Shown: positions 6,469 to 34,765 of the stretch, in pieces
Position numbering within the stretch: position 1 is the first letter of the stretch
How the letters are laid out: each line of letters starts with the position of its first letter
DNA from: Micrococcaceae bacterium Sec5.1
GTDB lineage: Bacteria; Actinomycetota; Actinomycetes; Actinomycetales; Micrococcaceae
Reading direction: 5' to 3'
Length of the DNA: 64,000 nt
NCBI GenBank assembly: GCA_039636795.1
Contig: CP143430.1
Coordinates: 1,922,001 to 1,986,000 of the forward strand
Position numbers and translations under genes: made by a program
Notes under the pieces: model-generated
What the model was told of the DNA's origin: nothing
The model's database searches: none
Seen by the model: the letters and a program-made list of their open reading frames with translations, nothing else

Positions 6469-7368
6469 TCAGCGGGAATGCTTGCTCGTCAGCCACTCCA
6501 TGGCTTCATCGAGCCCCGGGTGTTGCCACTGAAAACCGGCGGCGGCAAGCTTGGCTGGTTCCATCCTTTGGTTTGCCAGGACGAGCTCGTCAGCAAGCTT
6601 GCCAAGGACAAGCCGGAGGACGGGACGTGGGACGCGTAAGAAGGCAGGACGATGGAACGCTTTCGCGAGCCGCCTCACAATGGCGCTAACGTCCGCGCTT
6701 TCCGGGGCGCACACATTGACCGCACCTTCCAGATCGGACTTGAGGAGGAACGCGAGTGCAGCGGCTTCGTCGGCAAGGGTGATCCACGGCCAGTATTGTC
6801 GCCCGTTTCCGAAGGGTCCGCCAAGCCCAAGCCTGAGCAGTGGAAGCATTGGGCCCAATGCGCCACCGGAAGTGCTGAGCACCACTCCGGTCCTTGGTGT
6901 CACTACCCTCACGCTGGCTGGAGCGGTTCTGGCAGTCTGCTCCCATTCAACGCAGAGCGGTCCCAGCACTCCCGCGCCTGGACCGGAGTCTTCGCGGAGC
7001 ACACCGTCCCGGGAGGCGCCGTAGTAGCCGGATGCTGACTGGCTGACGAAAGACAATGCCGGCTGGCCCAAGCGACGCATGGCCGCAGTGAGTGTCCGGG
7101 TTGGCTGAAGGCGTGAGTCACGAATGACACTGATTCTGTGCTTGGTCCATGGCCGGTCGCCGATGCCGGCGCCGGACAAGTTGACCACCGCATCTGCGCC
7201 TTCCAGGATTGCCTCGTCCAGGACTCCAGCAACTGGATCCCATGTCCTTTCGTCGTCAGTCTTTGCAGGCCGACGAACCAGCCGGATGACCTCGTCACCA
7301 GCACTTTTTAACTGCTCGGACAATGCTGTCCCAATCATTCCTGAGGCTCCGGACATCACGATTCGCAT
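6469..7368 (-). CDS. TIGR01777 family NAD(P)-binding epimerase-like protein
   Basis: A 299-residue SDR-fold protein of the TIGR01777 (SDR39U1, YfcH-like) family. It has the dinucleotide motif GASGMIG (residues 7-13), NLSGAGI, the SQSASGYYG segment at the active-site position and a C-terminal DUF1731-like region with FLRVPRPVLRLVLG. The substrate is unknown for the family. The ATG at 7368 gives the expected MRIVMSGASG start; the frame stays open upstream but without family-like sequence. It runs tail to tail with the kinase gene with only 53 bases between them. Confidence 0.9.
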   Translation of the reverse strand: MRIVMSGASGMIGTALSEQLKSAGDEVIRLVRRPAKTDDERTWDPVAGVLDEAILEGADAVVNLSGAGIGDRPWTKHRISVIRDSRLQPTRTLTAAMRRLGQPALSFVSQSASGYYGASRDGVLREDSGPGAGVLGPLCVEWEQTARTAPASVRVVTPRTGVVLSTSGGALGPMLPLLRLGLGGPFGNGRQYWPWITLADEAAALAFLLKSDLEGAVNVCAPESADVSAIVRRLAKAFHRPAFLRVPRPVLRLVLGKLADELVLANQRMEPAKLAAAGFQWQHPGLDEAMEWLTSKHSR

Positions 7369-26874: not shown

Positions 26875-27921
26875 CTAGCCAAGCAATCCCGGGACGATAA
26901 GAAGCCCCGTGGGCACAGCCAGCAGCAAGGCTGAGGTGGCCAGCACCAGGGCGCGAAGACCTTTGGCGAGTGGAGGCTGTGGCGAGAGGAGGCGGCTCAC
27001 GCGTGACGCCGTCGTACGCGGTGAATCTGCCCCGCCGGTGGCGCTGATGCTGCCACCCTCGACGACGGCGCCCCCGCCGCTGAGCGCCCGCGGGCTGAGT
27101 GCCTGGCCGGCAAGAGCCTTGCCATTCGGTGCACCGCCGCTCACGGACTGTTCTCCCAGCCCTGGCGTGGAGGACCCGCTGGAGACTATGGCAATGGCCT
27201 TGATCAGCGTGACCTTGCTTTCGGTCCTGAGTGCGACGTCGTCAGCCAGCATTTCGATCAGGGAGTTCACGGCCGTCTGGGCAAGCCGTGTGGTGGGGAA
27301 CCAGGGGAGTGCCTGCCGCCAGGCTGCGAACGCCCAGAGCAGGAGGTCGTGACGTTGGGACAAGTGCGCGTTTTCATGGATGAGCACTGCGCGCAATTCC
27401 GCCGGTTCGAGGGCGGCCATGAGTCCGTCGGACAAGACTGTCACCGAACGTGCGCCGCCGGGCAAGCAGTAAGCCACAGGGGAGTCGTGGTTGATCACTA
27501 CGGTGCCCGGGCCGTCGTCCGAGGGTGATGCCAGAAGCGTGAGCAATTCGCGGTGTCGCCTGCGTTGCCGTTCAATTTTGTAGTAGGTCAAGAGCAGGGT
27601 GAACACCAGGTGGGCCGTTAGGAGTGCGGCCGCAGACAGGGCGAAGAGGTGCCAGAAGCCCAGCGCTGTGGTTGGCTCGTTATTGAAAACCATGCCGGCC
27701 AGGCTCCTGAGCCCAGCGATGAGGTTCTCACCGATTGGTTCCAGCCCGTAGACCAGCATTGCGCCGATCATGGACAGGCCACCTGCGAGGGCAATTGCCT
27801 GCCAGAGGACCATTGCGGTGAAGGGGGAGCGCGCAGGCCATTGCGCGCGCGAAAGCAAAACGGGTACCGGCCACGCCAGTATCAATGCCAGGACCGCCAG
27901 GAAGTATGAGGTCCAGAACAT
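26875..27921 (-). CDS. M56 family (BlaR1-like) membrane metalloprotease
   Basis: A 348-residue integral membrane zinc protease. Membrane helices lie near 3-23, 36-58, 88-112 and at the C-terminus (~325-345). The zinc motif HENAH (182-186) and E223/D227 in EMLADDVAL form the active site. It is much shorter than BlaR1 of staphylococci and has no penicillin-binding sensor domain; a Gly/Ser-rich stretch (~248-300) fills part of the C-terminal region. It starts 5 bases after the blaI stop, so the two form an operon. By analogy it would cleave BlaI when triggered; the trigger is unknown. Confidence 0.9.
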   Translation of the reverse strand: MFWTSYFLAVLALILAWPVPVLLSRAQWPARSPFTAMVLWQAIALAGGLSMIGAMLVYGLEPIGENLIAGLRSLAGMVFNNEPTTALGFWHLFALSAAALLTAHLVFTLLLTYYKIERQRRRHRELLTLLASPSDDGPGTVVINHDSPVAYCLPGGARSVTVLSDGLMAALEPAELRAVLIHENAHLSQRHDLLLWAFAAWRQALPWFPTTRLAQTAVNSLIEMLADDVALRTESKVTLIKAIAIVSSGSSTPGLGEQSVSGGAPNGKALAGQALSPRALSGGGAVVEGGSISATGGADSPRTTASRVSRLLSPQPPLAKGLRALVLATSALLLAVPTGLLIVPGLLG

Positions 27922-27926
27922 ACTGG

Positions 27927-28313
27927 CTAATTGTAGCCGAGCAGTTTGCGCAGGGTAGCGGCTTCACTTTCGGAGACGGAGCCAATGAAGCGGGCAAGAA
28001 CTGCTTCGCGGTCAGGAGCCGAGCCAAGAACTTCGTGCATGAGTTCCGCGGTGTGGTCGGCGCGGCTCGACACGGCTTGGTATCGGTGTGGCCTGGTCCC
28101 GCGTTCGCGTTCCACCAGGCCCTTCTTCTCCAGCCTGGAGAGCACTGTCAGGACCGTAGTCACTGCCAGGTCCTTGCCCTGGTGTCCCGCTGTGCCGTCG
28201 CCGGCTTCAGAGTCCTGCGCGAGAAGATCACGCAGGGTGTTGGCTGTTGCAGCCTCCTGGCCTGCCCAGAGCAGGTCCATCACTGCCCGTTCCAGTTCCC
28301 CAAGACTCGCCAT
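27927..28313 (-). CDS. BlaI/MecI/CopY family transcriptional repressor
   Basis: A 128-residue winged-helix repressor. MASLGELERAVMDLLW opens the domain, the recognition region is TVLTVLSRLEKKGLVERERG (near 52-72), and a C-terminal dimer helix follows (SESEAATLRKLLG). Relatives bind TACA/TGTA-type dyads and are inactivated by an M56 protease. ATG 28313 has AGGGAAG 5-6 bases upstream; a TTG three bases earlier is less likely. It is transcribed away from cydA, with three matching 17-bp dyads in the space between, so it is expected to control itself and cydABDC. Confidence 0.93.
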   Translation of the reverse strand: MASLGELERAVMDLLWAGQEAATANTLRDLLAQDSEAGDGTAGHQGKDLAVTTVLTVLSRLEKKGLVERERGTRPHRYQAVSSRADHTAELMHEVLGSAPDREAVLARFIGSVSESEAATLRKLLGYN

Positions 28314-28411
28314 CAATACTTCCCTACCTTCCGCGTCCCGGTGGCAAAAGCCGCCACCCGGGAGCGATGATCCAACGTTCCATCACAAATCTACCGCTTT
28401 TCAGCCTCTCA

Positions 28412-28428
28412 TTCTACGTGAGGTAGAA
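28412..28428. promoter_or_regulatory. BlaI operator candidate 1 (blaI side)
   Basis: TTCTAC-GTGAG-GTAGAA: 6-bp perfect inverted arms with a 5-base centre, 99 bases upstream of the blaI start. Same architecture as the two dyads before cydA. Confidence 0.75.
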
Positions 28429-28509
28429 CTATCGGCGCGTCGCGGACGGCGCTTGACCCTTGCGTGTGCGTAACGCCACTTGAAGAATGGCATGTGGTTC
28501 CCTCACTTG

Positions 28510-28526
28510 TTCTACACTGTGTAGAA
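28510..28526. promoter_or_regulatory. BlaI operator candidate 2 (cydA side)
   Basis: TTCTACACTGTGTAGAA is a perfect 17-bp palindrome (8-bp arms around a central T). It overlaps the likely -35 region of cydA. Confidence 0.8.
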
Positions 28527-28527
28527 G

Positions 28528-28533
28528 TAAAGT
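28528..28533 (+). promoter_or_regulatory. Possible cydA -10 element
   Basis: TAAAGT lies between the two downstream dyads, about 60 bases before the cydA ATG. The -35 region would fall inside dyad 2, so a bound repressor would block polymerase. Confidence 0.35.
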
Positions 28534-28534
28534 T

Positions 28535-28551
28535 TTCTACACAACGTAGAA
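28535..28551. promoter_or_regulatory. BlaI operator candidate 3 (cydA side)
   Basis: TTCTAC-ACAAC-GTAGAA, centred 25 bases downstream of dyad 2 and 41 bases before the cydA start. Confidence 0.78.
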
Positions 28552-28591
28552 GTAATTACACCGCACTTGGGCCGCCGGACAAAGGACAGCC

Positions 28592-30211
28592 ATGGACGCC
28601 TTGGAAATCGCACGCTGGCAATTCGGGATCACCACCGTCTACCACTTCATGATGGTGCCCCTGACCATCGGCCTTGGCCTGGTGGTGGCCATCATTCAGA
28701 CCCTGTGGTACCGCACGGGAAAGCCCGAGTATCTCCGCATGACCAAGTTCTGGGGCAAGCTCTTCCTCATCAACTTCATCATGGGTGTGGCAACCGGCAT
28801 CGTTCAGGAATTCCAGTTCGGCATGGCCTGGAGCGAATACAGCCGGTTCGTTGGTGATGTCTTTGGGGCACCGCTGGCCCTCGAAGCCCTTCTCGCCTTC
28901 TTCGTCGAGTCCACTTTCCTTGGACTCTGGATCTTCGGTTGGAAGCAACTTAAGCGCGGTGTCCACCTTGCCTGCCTGTGGATTGCCGTGATCGGTTCGG
29001 TCTTCTCCGCTTACTTCATCATCGTGGCCAATTCATGGATGCAGCACCCGGTGGGCGTTGAAATGGTGGAAGGCCGGCCTGTCATGACGGACGCCTGGGC
29101 AGTGTTTACCAATAACACTGCACTGGTTGCCGTACCGCACACTCTCTTCGGTGCCCTTGGTGTTGCCGGTGCCTTCCTGCTCGGAATCGCCTGGTACCAC
29201 TTGTGGCGCCGCCGCCATGACGGCATTGACGTGGTTGGTGCGGACGGCCGGCTGCTTGTCGGAGAAGCCGATATCCCGGGCCGCGACAAGGGTGACTACA
29301 CAGTATGGATGCGTTCCCTCCGGATCGGCGCCGTGGTGGCGATGATCTCCTTTGCCGGCACCGCCCTCACGGGCGACCTGCAAGGCAAGCTCATGTTCGA
29401 GCAGCAGCCCATGAAAATGGCTGCCGCGGAGGCGGCATGCCACGACGGCACCGGCTTTTCCGTACTGAGCGTCGGCAACCTGGGTGCCAAGAACTGTGAC
29501 GACATCGTCGCTGTCATCGAAGTGCCAGGGATCCTTTCCTTCCTCGCCAAGGGCGACTTCACCACAGAAGTGAAGGGCGTGAACAGCCTGCTTGGGGAGT
29601 ACAAGGAGAAGTACGGCACGCACTTGCCGGACAACCCGCTCTATGGCGACCGGGCCGGTCAGGAAATCCAGTACGTGCCCGTCATGGAAGTCACCTACTG
29701 GGGCTTCCGGATGATGATCGGCTTCGGGGGCGTCGCCGCACTGGCAGCGCTTGTGGCCCTATGGGTTACCCGCAAGGGCGTCGTCCCTGGGTCAAAATGG
29801 CTCATGCGCCTTGCCGTCTTCGGAATCCTGGCACCGTTCGGGGCCAACGCCGCCGGCTGGATCTTCACGGAAATGGGCCGGCAACCCTTTGTCGTAGCCC
29901 CAAATCCCGACATGAACGGTATTGACCAGGTCTTCATGTTCACCGCCGCTGCCGTTTCACCCGGCGTCAGTGCCGGTGAGCTCATGACCTCCCTGGTTGT
30001 CCTGACCGCCATCTACGCCGTCCTGCTGGTGGTGGAAGTCAAGCTCCTGGTCAAGTACGTCCGTGGCGGCGTCGCCTCAGCCATGCCTGAGCTTGCCCAC
30101 GCCGCGGACAAGCACCGCGCCAGCGATGACGAACGTGACAGGGACAAGGAAGGCGACGACGGCGCACCCGGCCCCGACAAAGCCGACGACGTCCTGGCGT
30201 TCGCCTACTAG
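28592..30211 (+). CDS. cydA: Cytochrome bd ubiquinol/menaquinol oxidase subunit I
   Basis: Haem-bearing subunit of the high-affinity terminal oxidase that reduces oxygen to water from quinol. The 539 residues hold about nine membrane helices, haem ligand H18 in YHFMMVP, H183 in VPHTLFG, acidic proton-path residues E98 and E106, a Met ligand in YWGFRMMIGF (~370) and the GRQPFVV signature (~428). The tail after residue ~500 is a highly charged ~40-residue extension. AAAGGA precedes the ATG. First gene of cydA-cydB-cydDC, with two repressor-type dyads in its promoter. Confidence 0.98.
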   Translation: MDALEIARWQFGITTVYHFMMVPLTIGLGLVVAIIQTLWYRTGKPEYLRMTKFWGKLFLINFIMGVATGIVQEFQFGMAWSEYSRFVGDVFGAPLALEALLAFFVESTFLGLWIFGWKQLKRGVHLACLWIAVIGSVFSAYFIIVANSWMQHPVGVEMVEGRPVMTDAWAVFTNNTALVAVPHTLFGALGVAGAFLLGIAWYHLWRRRHDGIDVVGADGRLLVGEADIPGRDKGDYTVWMRSLRIGAVVAMISFAGTALTGDLQGKLMFEQQPMKMAAAEAACHDGTGFSVLSVGNLGAKNCDDIVAVIEVPGILSFLAKGDFTTEVKGVNSLLGEYKEKYGTHLPDNPLYGDRAGQEIQYVPVMEVTYWGFRMMIGFGGVAALAALVALWVTRKGVVPGSKWLMRLAVFGILAPFGANAAGWIFTEMGRQPFVVAPNPDMNGIDQVFMFTAAAVSPGVSAGELMTSLVVLTAIYAVLLVVEVKLLVKYVRGGVASAMPELAHAADKHRASDDERDRDKEGDDGAPGPDKADDVLAFAY

Positions 30212-30228
30212 AAACAGAGGAATAGACA

Positions 30229-31305
30229 ATGGAACTGTTGCCAACCATCTGGTTCGTGGCCATCGCAGTACTATGGACCGGCTATCTCTTCCTTGAGGGC
30301 TTCGATCTCGGGGTAGGCATGCTCATGAAGCTGTTTGCGCGGAACAACACGGACAGGCGCGTGCTTCTCAATACCATCGGCCCCGTCTGGGACGGCAACG
30401 AGGTTTGGCTTCTCACTGCAGCCGGAGCCACCTTCGCAGCTTTCCCCCTCTGGTACGCCTCCTTGTTCTCGGCGCTCTATCTTCCGCTCCTGTGCGTCCT
30501 GGTGGCGTTGATCTTCCGGGCCGTGGCCTTCGAATACCGGGGCAAGGTGGACACTGAACGCTGGCGCACCACCTGGGACTGGGCAATCGCCGTTGGATCC
30601 TTTGTGGCCGCCTTCGGTATCGGCGCAGCCCTGGCGCTTACCACCACGGGCTTGCCGCTCAACGCCAACGGGGACCGCACCGGTGGACCGTTTGCCTGGT
30701 TCAGCGGTTACGCCCTCCTTGGCGGCTTCGGTGTGGTCGCCTTCGCCTTGGTTCACGCCCTGGCGTTCCTGGCGTTGAAGACCGACGGCGAGGTGCGGCT
30801 GCGTGCCCGCCGCTGGTTTGTGCGGCTGGTGCCGTTTGCTGTCTTGCCGATGCTCGCATGGATGGTTGCTGTGCAGTTCCTGAGCGGAAAGACCTGGACG
30901 TGGGTCATTGTTGTGGCCGGAGTCGTGTCCGTGGTTTTGGCCTGGCAGTGGGCACGCAACGGCTCGGAGGGCCGGGCATTTGGGGCAATCGGAGCTTTCG
31001 TCGTCTGTGCCACGGCGTCGATCTTCGGGGCCGCGTTCCCAGTGGTCATCCCCTCAACCGTAGATCCCGCGTTCAGCCTAACTATTTCCAATGCTTCTTC
31101 CTCCGACTACACGCTGGGCCTGATGAGCATTGTGGCTGCGGTGGGGCTTCCCCTGGTTATTGCCTACCAGGCCTGGACTTACTGGGTATTCCGGCGCCGT
31201 GTCAGCGCAGCGCACATTCCCGAAGCCCACGGTTTCCTTCCGGCCATCGCCGCCAAGGTGTTGGTTGGCAAGGAAAACACCAGCCCTTCCAACCCGGGAG
31301 CCTAG
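30229..31305 (+). CDS. cydB: Cytochrome bd oxidase subunit II
   Basis: Second subunit of the bd oxidase, 358 residues with about eight to nine membrane helices. The opening WFVAIAVLWTGYLFLEGFDLGVGML and GPVWDGNEVWLL are family hallmarks. It starts 17 bases after the cydA stop with an AGAGGAA ribosome site and is followed 7 bases later by cydDC, so all three are one operon. Confidence 0.97.
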   Translation: MELLPTIWFVAIAVLWTGYLFLEGFDLGVGMLMKLFARNNTDRRVLLNTIGPVWDGNEVWLLTAAGATFAAFPLWYASLFSALYLPLLCVLVALIFRAVAFEYRGKVDTERWRTTWDWAIAVGSFVAAFGIGAALALTTTGLPLNANGDRTGGPFAWFSGYALLGGFGVVAFALVHALAFLALKTDGEVRLRARRWFVRLVPFAVLPMLAWMVAVQFLSGKTWTWVIVVAGVVSVVLAWQWARNGSEGRAFGAIGAFVVCATASIFGAAFPVVIPSTVDPAFSLTISNASSSDYTLGLMSIVAAVGLPLVIAYQAWTYWVFRRRVSAAHIPEAHGFLPAIAAKVLVGKENTSPSNPGA

Positions 31306-31312
31306 CCTCGTC

Positions 31313-34300
31313 ATGAAGCCCGTGTTCCCCTCCGGCCCGGCCACCCGATCCGCCCTCTACGTCATAGGCCTGCTCTCAGCCCTCAAGGCACTTTCGCTGG
31401 TACTGATGGCACAGGCGGTGGCCGGTGCACTGGCCGGTTTGGCCGGAAGCCCGTCCGATTGGACCAACGGGCTGGTGTGGGGGGCCGTCGGAGCGGTGCT
31501 ACGGTCCCTGACCGTATGGGGCCAGGGCGTTGCGTCGCGCCGTGCCGCGCTGGGGGTCAAAGAGGAGCTGCGCTCGCAGCTTCTCAAGCGCTCACTGGCC
31601 GAGGGCGGAACAGCTGCGGTTGAGGGCACTAACGACGGCGGGCTCGCGATCCTCGCCACGCGCGGGCTGGACGCACTGGATGACTACTACACCCAATACC
31701 TGCCGGCCCTGGTGAACTGCGCGACCGTTCCGCTGCTCATCGGCGCCCGGATACTGTTTGCCGACTGGGTGAGCGCCGTGGTCATCGTCTTGACCGTTCC
31801 CCTTGTGCCGCTGTTCATGATCCTGATTGGCCGCCACACGGAAGACGCGGTCAGGGACGCCCAAACGACGCTTCGCAGGTTGTCCGGGCACATCCTTGAA
31901 CTCGCAAAGGGCCTGCCTGTGCTGGTGGGTTTGGGACGGGCCAGCGAGCAACGCGCGGCACTCGAAGACATTTCCGAGCAATACCGCAGCCGAACCATGG
32001 TCACGCTCCGGACGGCGTTCCTCTCGGCTCTTGCCCTGGAACTCATAGCAACCATCTCAGTCGCTGTCGTAGCAGTCTTCATCGGCGTGCGGCTGGTGGC
32101 CGGAGACATGGCCCTGGAAGCCGGGCTTTTGGCACTTATCCTTGCTCCTGACTGCTACTTGCCCCTGCGTGAGCTCGGTACCGCCCACCATGCCAGCGAT
32201 GACGGCAGGGCGGCCTTGGAAACTGCCAATACCGTGTTGAAGGCACCCACGCACCAGCGTCTTACTGATAACCAGCGTCTTACCGATAACCAGCCACTTA
32301 CCGACAACCCGACATCTCGCACCGGGCTCGCCGACATCGTGGTCAGAGGCCTCACGGTGACCTATACCGGACGGCCCGCACCCGCCGTCGAGCGCTTGGA
32401 TTTTACCGCTCCGGCAGGCCTGGTTACGGCGTTGGACGGAAACAGCGGCGCCGGAAAAAGCACTGTGCTGGGTGTCCTGGCCGGCCTGATCGGCCCGGGT
32501 CCGGGCGCATCCGTGACCGGCACCGTGACTGGTGTGGCACCGGGTACCGTCGCCTGGGTACCGCAACACCCCGTGATGGTGGCCGACACCGTGCAGGAGG
32601 AGATCGAGCTGTACCTTGGCGGGCAGCACTCAGTAGATACCGCGCAGGCTGTCGCGAGCATCCTGCGGAGAGTCTCTGCTGATCACCTTGCGGCCAAACA
32701 CCCTGCCGAACTCAGCCCGGGGGAGTTGCGCCGTGTGGCGCTTGCCCGGGGCCTGGCGCGGCTGGAGGCCGGCGCTGCCGTGCTGCTTCTGGACGAACCC
32801 ACCGCACATTTGGACCACTACTCAGCCAGCGTGGTCCGCTCTGCCATCACGTCCCTTCGCGGCTCTGCCACCGTCATCCTGATCGCACACGATTCCGCCA
32901 CCCGTGCGCTCGCCGACCATGTAGTCCGGGTAGAGCACTTGACGCCAGCGAATCGGCGTACCGACCTGCCGGAACGAAGGGCTGCATCTACCGCGGCCCT
33001 CGTATCAACCGATCTGCAGCAGTCCACCCGGACAGCTGCCGGTACTGGTCAAATTGAGCACGCAGAGGACGGAATCGTCCACACAGCCCTCAACCAGGGA
33101 TGGCTCCCCAACGTGAAACGGCTCGCGCTGGTCCTACGGCCGGTTCGAGGAAAGTTCGCCGCAGCAGGCGTGGTGGGAGTCCTCGCCGCGCTTTTCGCAG
33201 TTGCCCTGTCCGGCCTGTCAGGGTGGCTCATCATCCGGGCCAGCGACCAGCCACCCATTCTCTACCTCCTGGGCGCGATCGTTGGCGTGCGTTTCTTCGG
33301 CATCGGCAGGGCCGTCCTTCGCTACTGTGAGCGGCTCCTGACCCACGACGCCGTCTTTGCTGCGATGACACGCCTGCGCGGGGCGCTCTGGGCCACCCTG
33401 AGCCGCCGTGCACTCTCACTTCGCAGGCTTTTGCAAGGCGGTAACGTCCTGGGCTCGATCGTGGACGACGTTGACACACTCAGGGACCTTCTACCGAGGG
33501 TCGCCCTGCCTCCGTTGACTGCCGTGGGTGTTGGCGGTGCGGCCATCGCGGCAACGGCCATGGTGTTGCCCGTTGCCGTGCCCGCCGTTGCCTCTGCCAC
33601 CGTAATGGGACTCATTGTTGCGCCGCTTGTTGCCGTACTTGCTGACCGGAACGCCGCCAAGGCAGAACAACAGCTGCGCTCGGTGGTGCTCCGCGATGTT
33701 GCGGCCGCCCTCGATGCCCGCGCCGAACTAACCGCCAACGGTGTGGCCGGAAGCATCCTGACCGCACTCAGCGACAAAGATCGTGCGGCTACCGTTTCGG
33801 CGCAGCGTTCTGCCTGGGCCGAAGGTCTCGGCCAAGCTGTCACCGTCCTCGCCTGCTCGCTCGCCGCCCTATGGGCGGCACTCCTGGGCGCCGAATCGGT
33901 GCACGATGGTTCCGCCGCGCCTGCCCTTGTGGCCGTGATTGTGCTCATGCAATTGGCCCTCGTGGAACCTTTTGCGGCAACGGTTTCCGCCGTCCGCCAG
34001 GGCCCTGCGCTCGCAGACGTCTTGGGCGGCGTGGCAGTCACCGGGGCGTTGTCCGGCCCCGCCGATGCGGACAACGCAGATCACGACGCCGGTACGCACC
34101 CTTTGCCTGACCGCGACGGCAAGGCGGGGCTGGAGTTGAACGGAATTGCCGCTGCCTGGCCAGGTGGCCCGTCGGTGATCTCCGGAGTTACCGCCGAGGC
34201 CGGGCCGGGCCGATGGCTGGCAGTCACCGGCCCGTCGGGAGCCGGCAAATCGACGCTGCTTTCAGTCCTCCTTGGCTTCCTTCCTGTGAAGGAAGGAAGG

Positions 34301-34765
34301 GCACTGCTCACGGGGACAGCGGCGTGGTGCCCGCAGGAAGCCCACCTCTTCGACTCCACCATCCGGGGTAATCTCCTTCTGGCGAGGCCCCCGGGGAACA
34401 AGCCCAACGAACAAGAAATGGCCAAGGCCTTGCAGGATGTGGGTCTCGACGTATTGGTAGGGACCTTGCCGGAGGGGCTTGACACACGCATTGGATCAGC
34501 CGGGGCCTTCCTCAGTGGTGGCGAGCGGCAGCGTCTTGCCATGGCCAGGACACTTCTGACGGGCGCGAGCGTGCTGTTGCTGGATGAGCCTACGGCGCAC
34601 CTTGATGCTGAAGCCGCCCGCGAAATGATGGCCACCCTTCGCCGGGGTTTGCGGGACGTCACAGTAGTCTTGGTGACCCATAACCCGGATGACATCGATC
34701 CTGCAGACGCCAGGCTTGAGCTCCCCAGCGCGGCTGAGCTGGTGAGAGTTCCTACTCCCCAGTAG
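31313..34765 (+). CDS. cydDC: Fused CydD-CydC ABC transporter (bd oxidase assembly)
   Basis: One 1150-residue chain in place of two half-transporters. The CydD half has a membrane domain (~1-300), Walker A GNSGAGKST (376-384), signature LSPGELRRVALARG (from 467) and Walker B LLLDEP. The CydC half has a membrane domain (~600-850), Walker A GPSGAGKST (973-981), signature LSGGERQRLAMART (from 1067) and LLLDEPTAH. CydDC exports thiols (or handles haem) to the outside and is needed for bd oxidase maturation. ATG 31313 follows cydB by 7 bases; the frame extends upstream inside cydB without meaning. A repeat at 32254-32307 lies in the CydD linker. Confidence 0.95.
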   Translation: MKPVFPSGPATRSALYVIGLLSALKALSLVLMAQAVAGALAGLAGSPSDWTNGLVWGAVGAVLRSLTVWGQGVASRRAALGVKEELRSQLLKRSLAEGGTAAVEGTNDGGLAILATRGLDALDDYYTQYLPALVNCATVPLLIGARILFADWVSAVVIVLTVPLVPLFMILIGRHTEDAVRDAQTTLRRLSGHILELAKGLPVLVGLGRASEQRAALEDISEQYRSRTMVTLRTAFLSALALELIATISVAVVAVFIGVRLVAGDMALEAGLLALILAPDCYLPLRELGTAHHASDDGRAALETANTVLKAPTHQRLTDNQRLTDNQPLTDNPTSRTGLADIVVRGLTVTYTGRPAPAVERLDFTAPAGLVTALDGNSGAGKSTVLGVLAGLIGPGPGASVTGTVTGVAPGTVAWVPQHPVMVADTVQEEIELYLGGQHSVDTAQAVASILRRVSADHLAAKHPAELSPGELRRVALARGLARLEAGAAVLLLDEPTAHLDHYSASVVRSAITSLRGSATVILIAHDSATRALADHVVRVEHLTPANRRTDLPERRAASTAALVSTDLQQSTRTAAGTGQIEHAEDGIVHTALNQGWLPNVKRLALVLRPVRGKFAAAGVVGVLAALFAVALSGLSGWLIIRASDQPPILYLLGAIVGVRFFGIGRAVLRYCERLLTHDAVFAAMTRLRGALWATLSRRALSLRRLLQGGNVLGSIVDDVDTLRDLLPRVALPPLTAVGVGGAAIAATAMVLPVAVPAVASATVMGLIVAPLVAVLADRNAAKAEQQLRSVVLRDVAAALDARAELTANGVAGSILTALSDKDRAATVSAQRSAWAEGLGQAVTVLACSLAALWAALLGAESVHDGSAAPALVAVIVLMQLALVEPFAATVSAVRQGPALADVLGGVAVTGALSGPADADNADHDAGTHPLPDRDGKAGLELNGIAAAWPGGPSVISGVTAEAGPGRWLAVTGPSGAGKSTLLSVLLGFLPVKEGRALLTGTAAWCPQEAHLFDSTIRGNLLLARPPGNKPNEQEMAKALQDVGLDVLVGTLPEGLDTRIGSAGAFLSGGERQRLAMARTLLTGASVLLLDEPTAHLDAEAAREMMATLRRGLRDVTVVLVTHNPDDIDPADARLELPSAAELVRVPTPQ
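32254..32307 (+). repeat. Three 18-bp tandem units inside cydDC
   Basis: Units at 32254, 32272 and 32290 (CCAGCGTCTTAC-GATAA and variants; the third is more diverged) encode QRLTDN, QRLTDN and QPLTDN between the CydD membrane domain and its ATPase domain. The period keeps frame. Confidence 0.9.

Follow-up and report, generated by a model that had tools for sequence, protein, structure and literature searches.

Conserved exact dyads suggest a respiration-dedicated BlaI/M56 regulon in the Arthrobacter group

How actinobacteria sense a blocked respiratory chain and induce cytochrome bd is not settled. We analyzed a 64,000-nucleotide window of contig CP143430.1 (positions 1,922,001 to 1,986,000) from Micrococcaceae bacterium Sec5.1, in which blaI and the gene of an M56 metalloprotease lie divergently to cydA, and in which exactly three copies of the dyad TTCTAC-N5-GTAGAA were found between blaI and cydA. 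The dyads, the neighboring genes, their conservation and the active-site residues were read directly from the sequence, and the dyad observation was confirmed. As judged from these data, the operator set appears real and strongly conserved, and the pair appears to be a respiration-dedicated variant of the BlaI/M56 module; in the Arthrobacter group, a repressor of the penicillin-resistance type appears to control the alternative oxidase together with haem and cytochrome assembly genes. The elements of the locus, in window coordinates, are the following.

26875 to 27921, minus strand: gene of an M56 (BlaR1-like) zinc metalloprotease of 348 residues with about four hydrophobic segments, the motif HENAH and no penicillin-binding sensor domain.
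27927 to 28313, minus strand: blaI, encoding a BlaI/MecI-family winged-helix repressor, with ATG at 28313.
28412 to 28428, no strand: O1, TTCTAC-GTGAG-GTAGAA, presumed blaI-M56 operator, which stays with blaI where cydA is apart.
28510 to 28526, no strand: O2, TTCTAC-ACTGT-GTAGAA, presumed cydA operator over the -10-like TACACT (28513 to 28518).
28535 to 28551, no strand: O3, TTCTAC-ACAAC-GTAGAA, second presumed cydA operator, which goes with cydA when split from blaI.
28592 to 30211, plus strand: cydA, cytochrome bd subunit I (Pfam PF01654, 501 bits).

A first-pass annotation had reported the three exact copies at 28412, 28510 and 28535 and a distance of 25 bp between the two on the cydA side, and both statements were verified. 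With up to two mismatches, the window contained four dyad matches, compared with 0.58 expected from shuffled sequence. The whole-genome scan that the annotation had proposed was run and revealed seven exact dyads in 5.43 Mb (5,426,886 bases, one contig), whose targets are listed below; three of the seven lay in the blaI-cydA gap, and the Poisson chance of finding three in a single gap of 275 bp, with the rate taken from the four sites elsewhere, was approximately 1e-12. Chance inverted repeats could be argued from the sites with one mismatch, which were no commoner than those of a reversed control pattern (16 genomic matches each with up to one mismatch), so that only exact or conserved one-mismatch sites carry weight. 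However, exact dyads were present in all 101 same-genus genomes, with a mean of 7.4 (range 3-9) against 1.2 (0-4) for the control, and the arms were invariant while the cores varied. Chance is contradicted by this conservation, and its probability is negligible.

The arrangement of the dyads was equally well kept. Among 215 relatives in a scan of named genomes, the best 80 were retained, from Arthrobacter, Paenarthrobacter and Pseudarthrobacter, with Paenarthrobacter histidinolovorans (100%) as the closest in that scan. Three exact dyads were kept at all 80 loci, side by side in 76 and split into one and two in four. Divergent cydA stood beside blaI in 76 of the 80 loci, and a comparison for dyads lost where the gene order is kept, as proposed earlier, revealed exactly three exact dyads in 76 of 76. 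At the four loci with cydA apart, one exact dyad stayed by blaI and two accompanied cydA; O1 was therefore assigned to blaI and O2 and O3 to cydA. The step within the cydA-side pair was 23-26 bp across the 76 loci. The O2 core started with ACT in 74 of them, which preserves the TACACT box, and O3 had 38 different cores between invariant arms.

An alignment of 15 intergenic regions revealed that the dyads, a stretch by the cydA start and one -10-like block on the blaI side were retained.

28388 to 28393, minus strand: putative blaI -10 box TAGATT, which lies outside the dyads and is conserved across the 15 aligned gaps.

The -35 position of this putative promoter (28411 to 28416) overlapped O1. 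A sigma-70 scan of 28250 to 28650 on both strands gave no promoter-like site, and conservation is thus the basis of the -10 assignments. The first-pass annotation had the cydA-side pair bracketing the -10 region; this detail was not upheld, as conservation places O2 over TACACT itself and O3 just downstream of the presumed start. With O1 over the presumed blaI -35 position, O2 over the presumed cydA -10 box and O3 at the presumed transcript start, repression is the natural reading.

The blaI product matched Penicillinase_R (PF03965) with 74.8 bits, above the cut-off of 22.6, and was the sole PF03965 protein found in the genome; the open frame as listed starts one codon earlier, at TTG 28316. 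The copper repressors CopY/TcrY resemble it in a weak NCBIfam match, and some sites in relatives precede PCuAC, CtaG, CopC or CopD genes or operons, but the match to TIGR02698 (26.7 bits) was far under the cut-off of 121.95. The protease gave a marginal PF05569 match (31.4 bits, cut-off 31), lower than that to the M48 family PF01435 (36.8 bits). Its HExxH...E zinc site was complete, with H182, E183, H186 and E223 invariant in an alignment of 24 sequences, and hydropathy placed the hydrophobic segments at approximately residues 1-28, 34-63, 85-116 and 317-348. No penicillin-binding sensor domain was matched by Pfam in the 348 residues, and nothing follows the last segment, which closes the protein; Pfam, hydropathy and the 24-sequence alignment agree with the earlier description of a HENAH protease without a penicillin sensor. 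An A-Y-C-x-P stretch before the active site (window 26875 to 27921) was also invariant in the 24 aligned proteases, and its Cys152 could be a structural or sensor residue.

These features bear on the possibility that the pair is an ordinary sensor of beta-lactams or cell-wall stress and that the respiration genes are merely part of an antibiotic response. The family names BlaI and BlaR1 favor it, and in M. tuberculosis BlaI/BlaR is tied to blaC, and amoxicillin-clavulanate raises both blaI-blaR and cydAB (PMC5473688). However, the protease here lacks the penicillin sensor domain, whereas staphylococcal BlaR1 carries an additional sensor domain (PMC9834060). No class A beta-lactamase (PF13354) was found in the genome, a search that did not extend to other classes and penicillin-binding proteins, and no beta-lactamase was recognized beside any of the seven exact dyads. 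A beta-lactamase function was rejected on these grounds, and we consider the antibiotic-response explanation improbable.

The Staphylococcus systems BlaI-BlaR1 and MecI-MecR1 share with this locus a winged-helix repressor and a membrane zinc protease; this locus differs from them in lacking a penicillin-binding sensor and in its targets, among which no beta-lactamase was recognized. In S. aureus, BlaR1 cleaves BlaI between Asn101 and Phe102 (PMC9834060), and a profile alignment placed this cut-site Phe at Phe110 of the present BlaI. It could instead be supposed that BlaI represses and is released by a small cytoplasmic ligand, not by M56 cleavage, as B. licheniformis work indicates that a peptidoglycan dipeptide binds BlaI/MecI and destabilizes the DNA complex (PMC3305447). 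Such release is unlikely given that M56 was directly downstream of blaI in 30 of 30 orthologue loci with conserved active-site residues, and that the Phe at the aligned scissile position was invariant in 18 of 18 BlaI sequences.

The association of the dyad with BlaI extended across the order. We surveyed 248 genomes, with a BlaI match threshold of E 1e-10, and sorted them by hand into BlaI score classes. A BlaI match was found in 95 genomes and an exact dyad in 47, namely in 40 of the 42 with BlaI of at least 100 bits, 4 of the 53 with weaker BlaI and 3 of the 153 with no BlaI. Fisher's test for 40/42 versus 7/206 gave 2e-36, a value that ignores relatedness and uses a 100-bit cut picked after both tables had been seen. 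At the 30 best BlaI loci of the order, M56 was downstream in 30 and cydA divergent in 28, and an exact dyad was upstream in all 30, in what is predicted to be the promoter region of blaI itself. The two genomes without divergent cydA (G170 and G212) had no cydA match genome-wide and retained BlaI and dyads.

Such results are difficult to reconcile with another transcription factor owning the dyads and BlaI being a mere neighbor. That explanation is suggested by the Rrf2 regulator adjoining hmp, one of the genes behind an exact dyad, and by the control of cyd by Rex in Streptomyces and by Crp in M. smegmatis (PMC7739888), where the target operon is the same and the signals are also respiratory. 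Against it, the dyads co-occur with BlaI across the 248 genomes, and a dyad precedes blaI even in the two genomes without a cydA match and in 30 of 30 Mycobacterium-type loci lacking a CydA match. The blaI-cydA gap itself had no match to a Rex consensus (one strand, up to four mismatches) and one Crp-like site with three mismatches. Rex and Crp, which belong to a different protein family, were therefore rejected as the main regulator acting in the gap, and ownership by any other factor is very improbable.

Outside the gap, the genome had four more exact dyads; the gene families named here come from Pfam. One dyad preceded hmp, the flavohaemoglobin gene, and another stood upstream of a hemQ-hemH-hemC-hemD cluster. 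A third was upstream of a histidine-phosphatase gene, after which come cytochrome-c biogenesis genes of the ResA-like, CcdA-like and ResB types, and the fourth preceded the gene of a 117-residue membrane protein (L014:6026-6379, minus strand). For seven further genomes of the genus, every exact site was examined (35 loci, 49 sites), and 48 of the 49 fell at the five promoter regions already named, with 21 at blaI-cydA, seven each at hemQ, the cytochrome-c operon and the membrane protein gene, and six at hmp. The remaining site (L057) preceded a gene for a 144-residue protein that weakly matched the NimA type. The first-pass annotation had the pair wired to cydABDC and to itself; this reading was supported, with the dyads conserved in 76 of 76 loci, and its scope was too narrow, as haem and cytochrome-c genes are also marked.

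Weaker sites were found near genes of the AtpB, QcrC and CtaE families. A one-mismatch dyad accompanied the atp operon in 14 of 15 genomes (the 15th had only a two-mismatch match), approximately 960-1010 bp before atpB and upstream of the small membrane genes that lead the operon. The site is of interest in view of M. tuberculosis, where BlaI binds at the promoter of Rv1303, which leads the same operon; an operator-like dyad before atp, a trait of the M. tuberculosis-type BlaI respiratory regulon, is present here as sequence. A dyad with up to one mismatch lay approximately 70 bp upstream of qcrC in 9 of 15 genomes. One-mismatch sites near sucC and a Mca-like gene were excluded from the target count.

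Taken together, we consider it probable that the dyads are operators of the adjacent BlaI and that they define a BlaI/M56 respiratory regulon released by M56 cleavage when respiration is impaired, which supports the interpretation of the first-pass annotation; we infer the binding, repression, cleavage and nature of the signal. A BlaI dimer on O1 would repress blaI-M56; cydABDC would be repressed by dimers at two places, O2 over the -10 box and O3 immediately beyond the start. BlaI would also repress hmp, hemQ-hemH-hemC-hemD, the cytochrome-c biogenesis operon and the 117-residue membrane protein gene, and through the weaker sites it would act on the atp operon as well, and on qcrC in many species. 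On impairment of the respiratory chain, the sensor-less M56 protease would cut BlaI near the conserved Phe110, and the whole regulon would be turned on together with the protease gene. Impaired respiration is suggested as the trigger by the targets: a copper-free oxidase, flavohaemoglobin, haem and cytochrome-c supply, joined among the relatives by oxidase assembly and copper insertion. Since hydropathy leaves only short stretches of M56 on the far side of the membrane, sensing likely takes place within the membrane or depends on a partner.

M. tuberculosis BlaI (Rv1846c) and BlaR (Rv1845c) form the nearest known system. The chain 2g9w, the best solved relative, was the only solved chain found in a single-sequence search with BlaI. 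We used the M. tuberculosis BlaI chain as a query and compared the 30 best loci (L222-L251). A TAC(G/T)AC-N5-GTAGTA-type 6-N5-6 dyad with at most one unpaired arm position lay within 100 bp before blaI in 30 of 30; M56 adjoined blaI, and none of these loci gave a CydA match. Of the 30, 25 belonged to one genus, taken to be Mycobacterium, and were 84-95% identical to the query. The TACKAC-N5-GTMGTA pattern occurred 7, 7 and 4 times in three Mycobacterium-like genomes, and these 18 sites were located at blaI (3), the atp operon (3), cydA (3), a DUF3817-type gene (3), the gene of a 142-144-residue membrane protein (2) and elsewhere (4), such that sister dyads preceded cydA, atp and blaI in all three genomes. 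As a side observation (L222-L251 and L252-L269), the Mycobacterium-type arm differs from the Arthrobacter arm at the second base (TAC versus TTC), alongside a helix change from TTVLTVLSRLEKKGLV to TTIMTVLQRLAKKNLV; operator and repressor have possibly changed together.

The abstract of Sala 2009 reportedly lists the atp operon, with cyd absent. Binding of BlaI to the cytochrome bd promoter is asserted in PMC5473688, which cites Sala 2009; according to the same paper, the M. tuberculosis BlaR orthologue has no sensor and BlaI acts on the atp operon (see also PMC5874750). The Rv1303 promoter is bound by M. tuberculosis BlaI in vitro, and in M. smegmatis the Rv1303 homologue, leader of the atp operon, is lowered when this BlaI is overexpressed (PMC12565901). 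In the available parts of a genome-wide DNA-binding study, BlaI is named only for method comparison, in a figure and in a reference (PMC4301838). The present locus differs from the M. tuberculosis system in that blaI stands beside cydA, the arms are TTCTAC instead of TAC(G/T)AC, the genes behind exact sites include those for haem, cytochrome c and flavohaemoglobin, and the search for a class A beta-lactamase gave none.

Several points weigh against the proposed regulon, beginning with the lack of an excess of one-mismatch sites noted above. The qcrC dyad was absent in 5 of 15 genomes and had two mismatches in one more, and the Mycobacterium-like counts of 7, 7 and 4 were only modestly above the control (2, 5 and 3). 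Among 20 hand-picked blaI loci from other families of the class, a CydA match near blaI, within the 5.5 kb covered, favors the regulon at 12; the other eight had none, and two of the 12 matches were only 26% identical. Induction of M. smegmatis cydAB under respiratory inhibition is ascribed to Crp1 in PMC7739888, the main text of which does not bring in BlaI. The identity of the signal is a conjecture based on the targets, and no binding, transcript or cleavage data were found for any Arthrobacter species.

The link between BlaI and respiration is known from M. tuberculosis, and the dedicated conserved regulon is new; among the papers listed from the open-licence literature, which leaves most subscription journals out of scope, none dealt with such a regulon in Arthrobacter or other Micrococcales. 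Our best reading is that the BlaI/M56 respiratory regulon may be old in Actinomycetes. A broader view, which we hold tentatively and at somewhat less than even chances, is that the sensor-less protease with BlaI is an ancestral master switch of actinobacterial respiration and that the beta-lactam role is secondary; the state of the chain would then be read inside the membrane, and cytochrome bd, haem, cytochrome c, oxidase assembly, copper insertion, NO detoxification and ATP synthase would be co-regulated. If the regulon is real, a pair named after penicillin resistance would be recast as a respiratory regulator. The question can be put to a direct test, given a defined operator, a defined target list and a genus that is harmless and can be cultured. 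Mycobacteria lacking cytochrome bd reportedly show greater sensitivity to respiratory inhibitors (PMC5587683).

The remainder of the cyd operon lies downstream of cydA.

30229 to 31305, plus strand: cydB, cytochrome bd subunit II (Pfam PF02322, 341 bits).
31313 to 34765, plus strand: cydDC-type fusion, a single frame carrying two ABC modules (ABC_tran in two stretches, ABC_membrane).

The name CydDC was given by position and resemblance; its frame starts at TTG 31130 in the open-reading-frame list, and the start of MKPVFPSG is at 31313. A YkoE-like neighbor protein was examined and had no relevance. At hmp (L011, approximately 6745-6785), the exact dyad was nested in the inverted repeat ACATCT...AGATGT, which is larger and may serve the neighboring Rrf2-type regulator as a second operator. 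The 117-residue membrane protein matched no Pfam or NCBIfam family, and its homologues (120 listed of 516) were nameless, "hypothetical" or "uncharacterized", bar one unrelated SecY label. It stood behind an exact dyad in 8 of 8 same-genus genomes examined, and a homologue did so in G170 (L133). An exact dyad also preceded the gene of a small split-barrel flavin-type protein, named by eye, at L057:3012, L140:2263 and L157:2193.

In the relatives, the simple gene caller mis-called some frames, and several sites (e.g., L137, L142, L146, L153 and L162) consequently carry no gene assignment; gene names without a family scan were read by eye. The small same-family genome G170 contained 15 exact dyads, placed for all but three (L137, L142 and L144). 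These lay by hemQ, CopD/CtaG, SURF1, sdhC, a ResA-like gene, ctaC, ctaB (UbiA), isocitrate lyase and blaI, and by a SufR-like regulator facing an ABC transporter, the 117-residue membrane protein homologue and a flavin-type protein; loci L132-L145 give the impression of a regulon extended into the main respiratory chain. In family f6, sites were taken from 6 of 13 dyad-bearing genomes (G124, 6/10 sites; G316, 6/8; G213, 4/6; G227, 4/6; G305, 5/7; G254, 5/7), those omitted being mostly blaI sites. Some of those taken lay by hmp, CtaG, CopC, DUF1775 (YcnI-type), CcdA, universal stress proteins and a membrane gene with PCuAC behind it, and others carry no assignment. The name globin for a small protein at L148 was unsupported by Pfam and NCBIfam and was not used. 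Exact dyads preceded universal-stress-protein-like genes at L171, L181, L184, L187 and L191 (Pfam for L171 and L181 only), targets that are reminiscent of hypoxia regulons.

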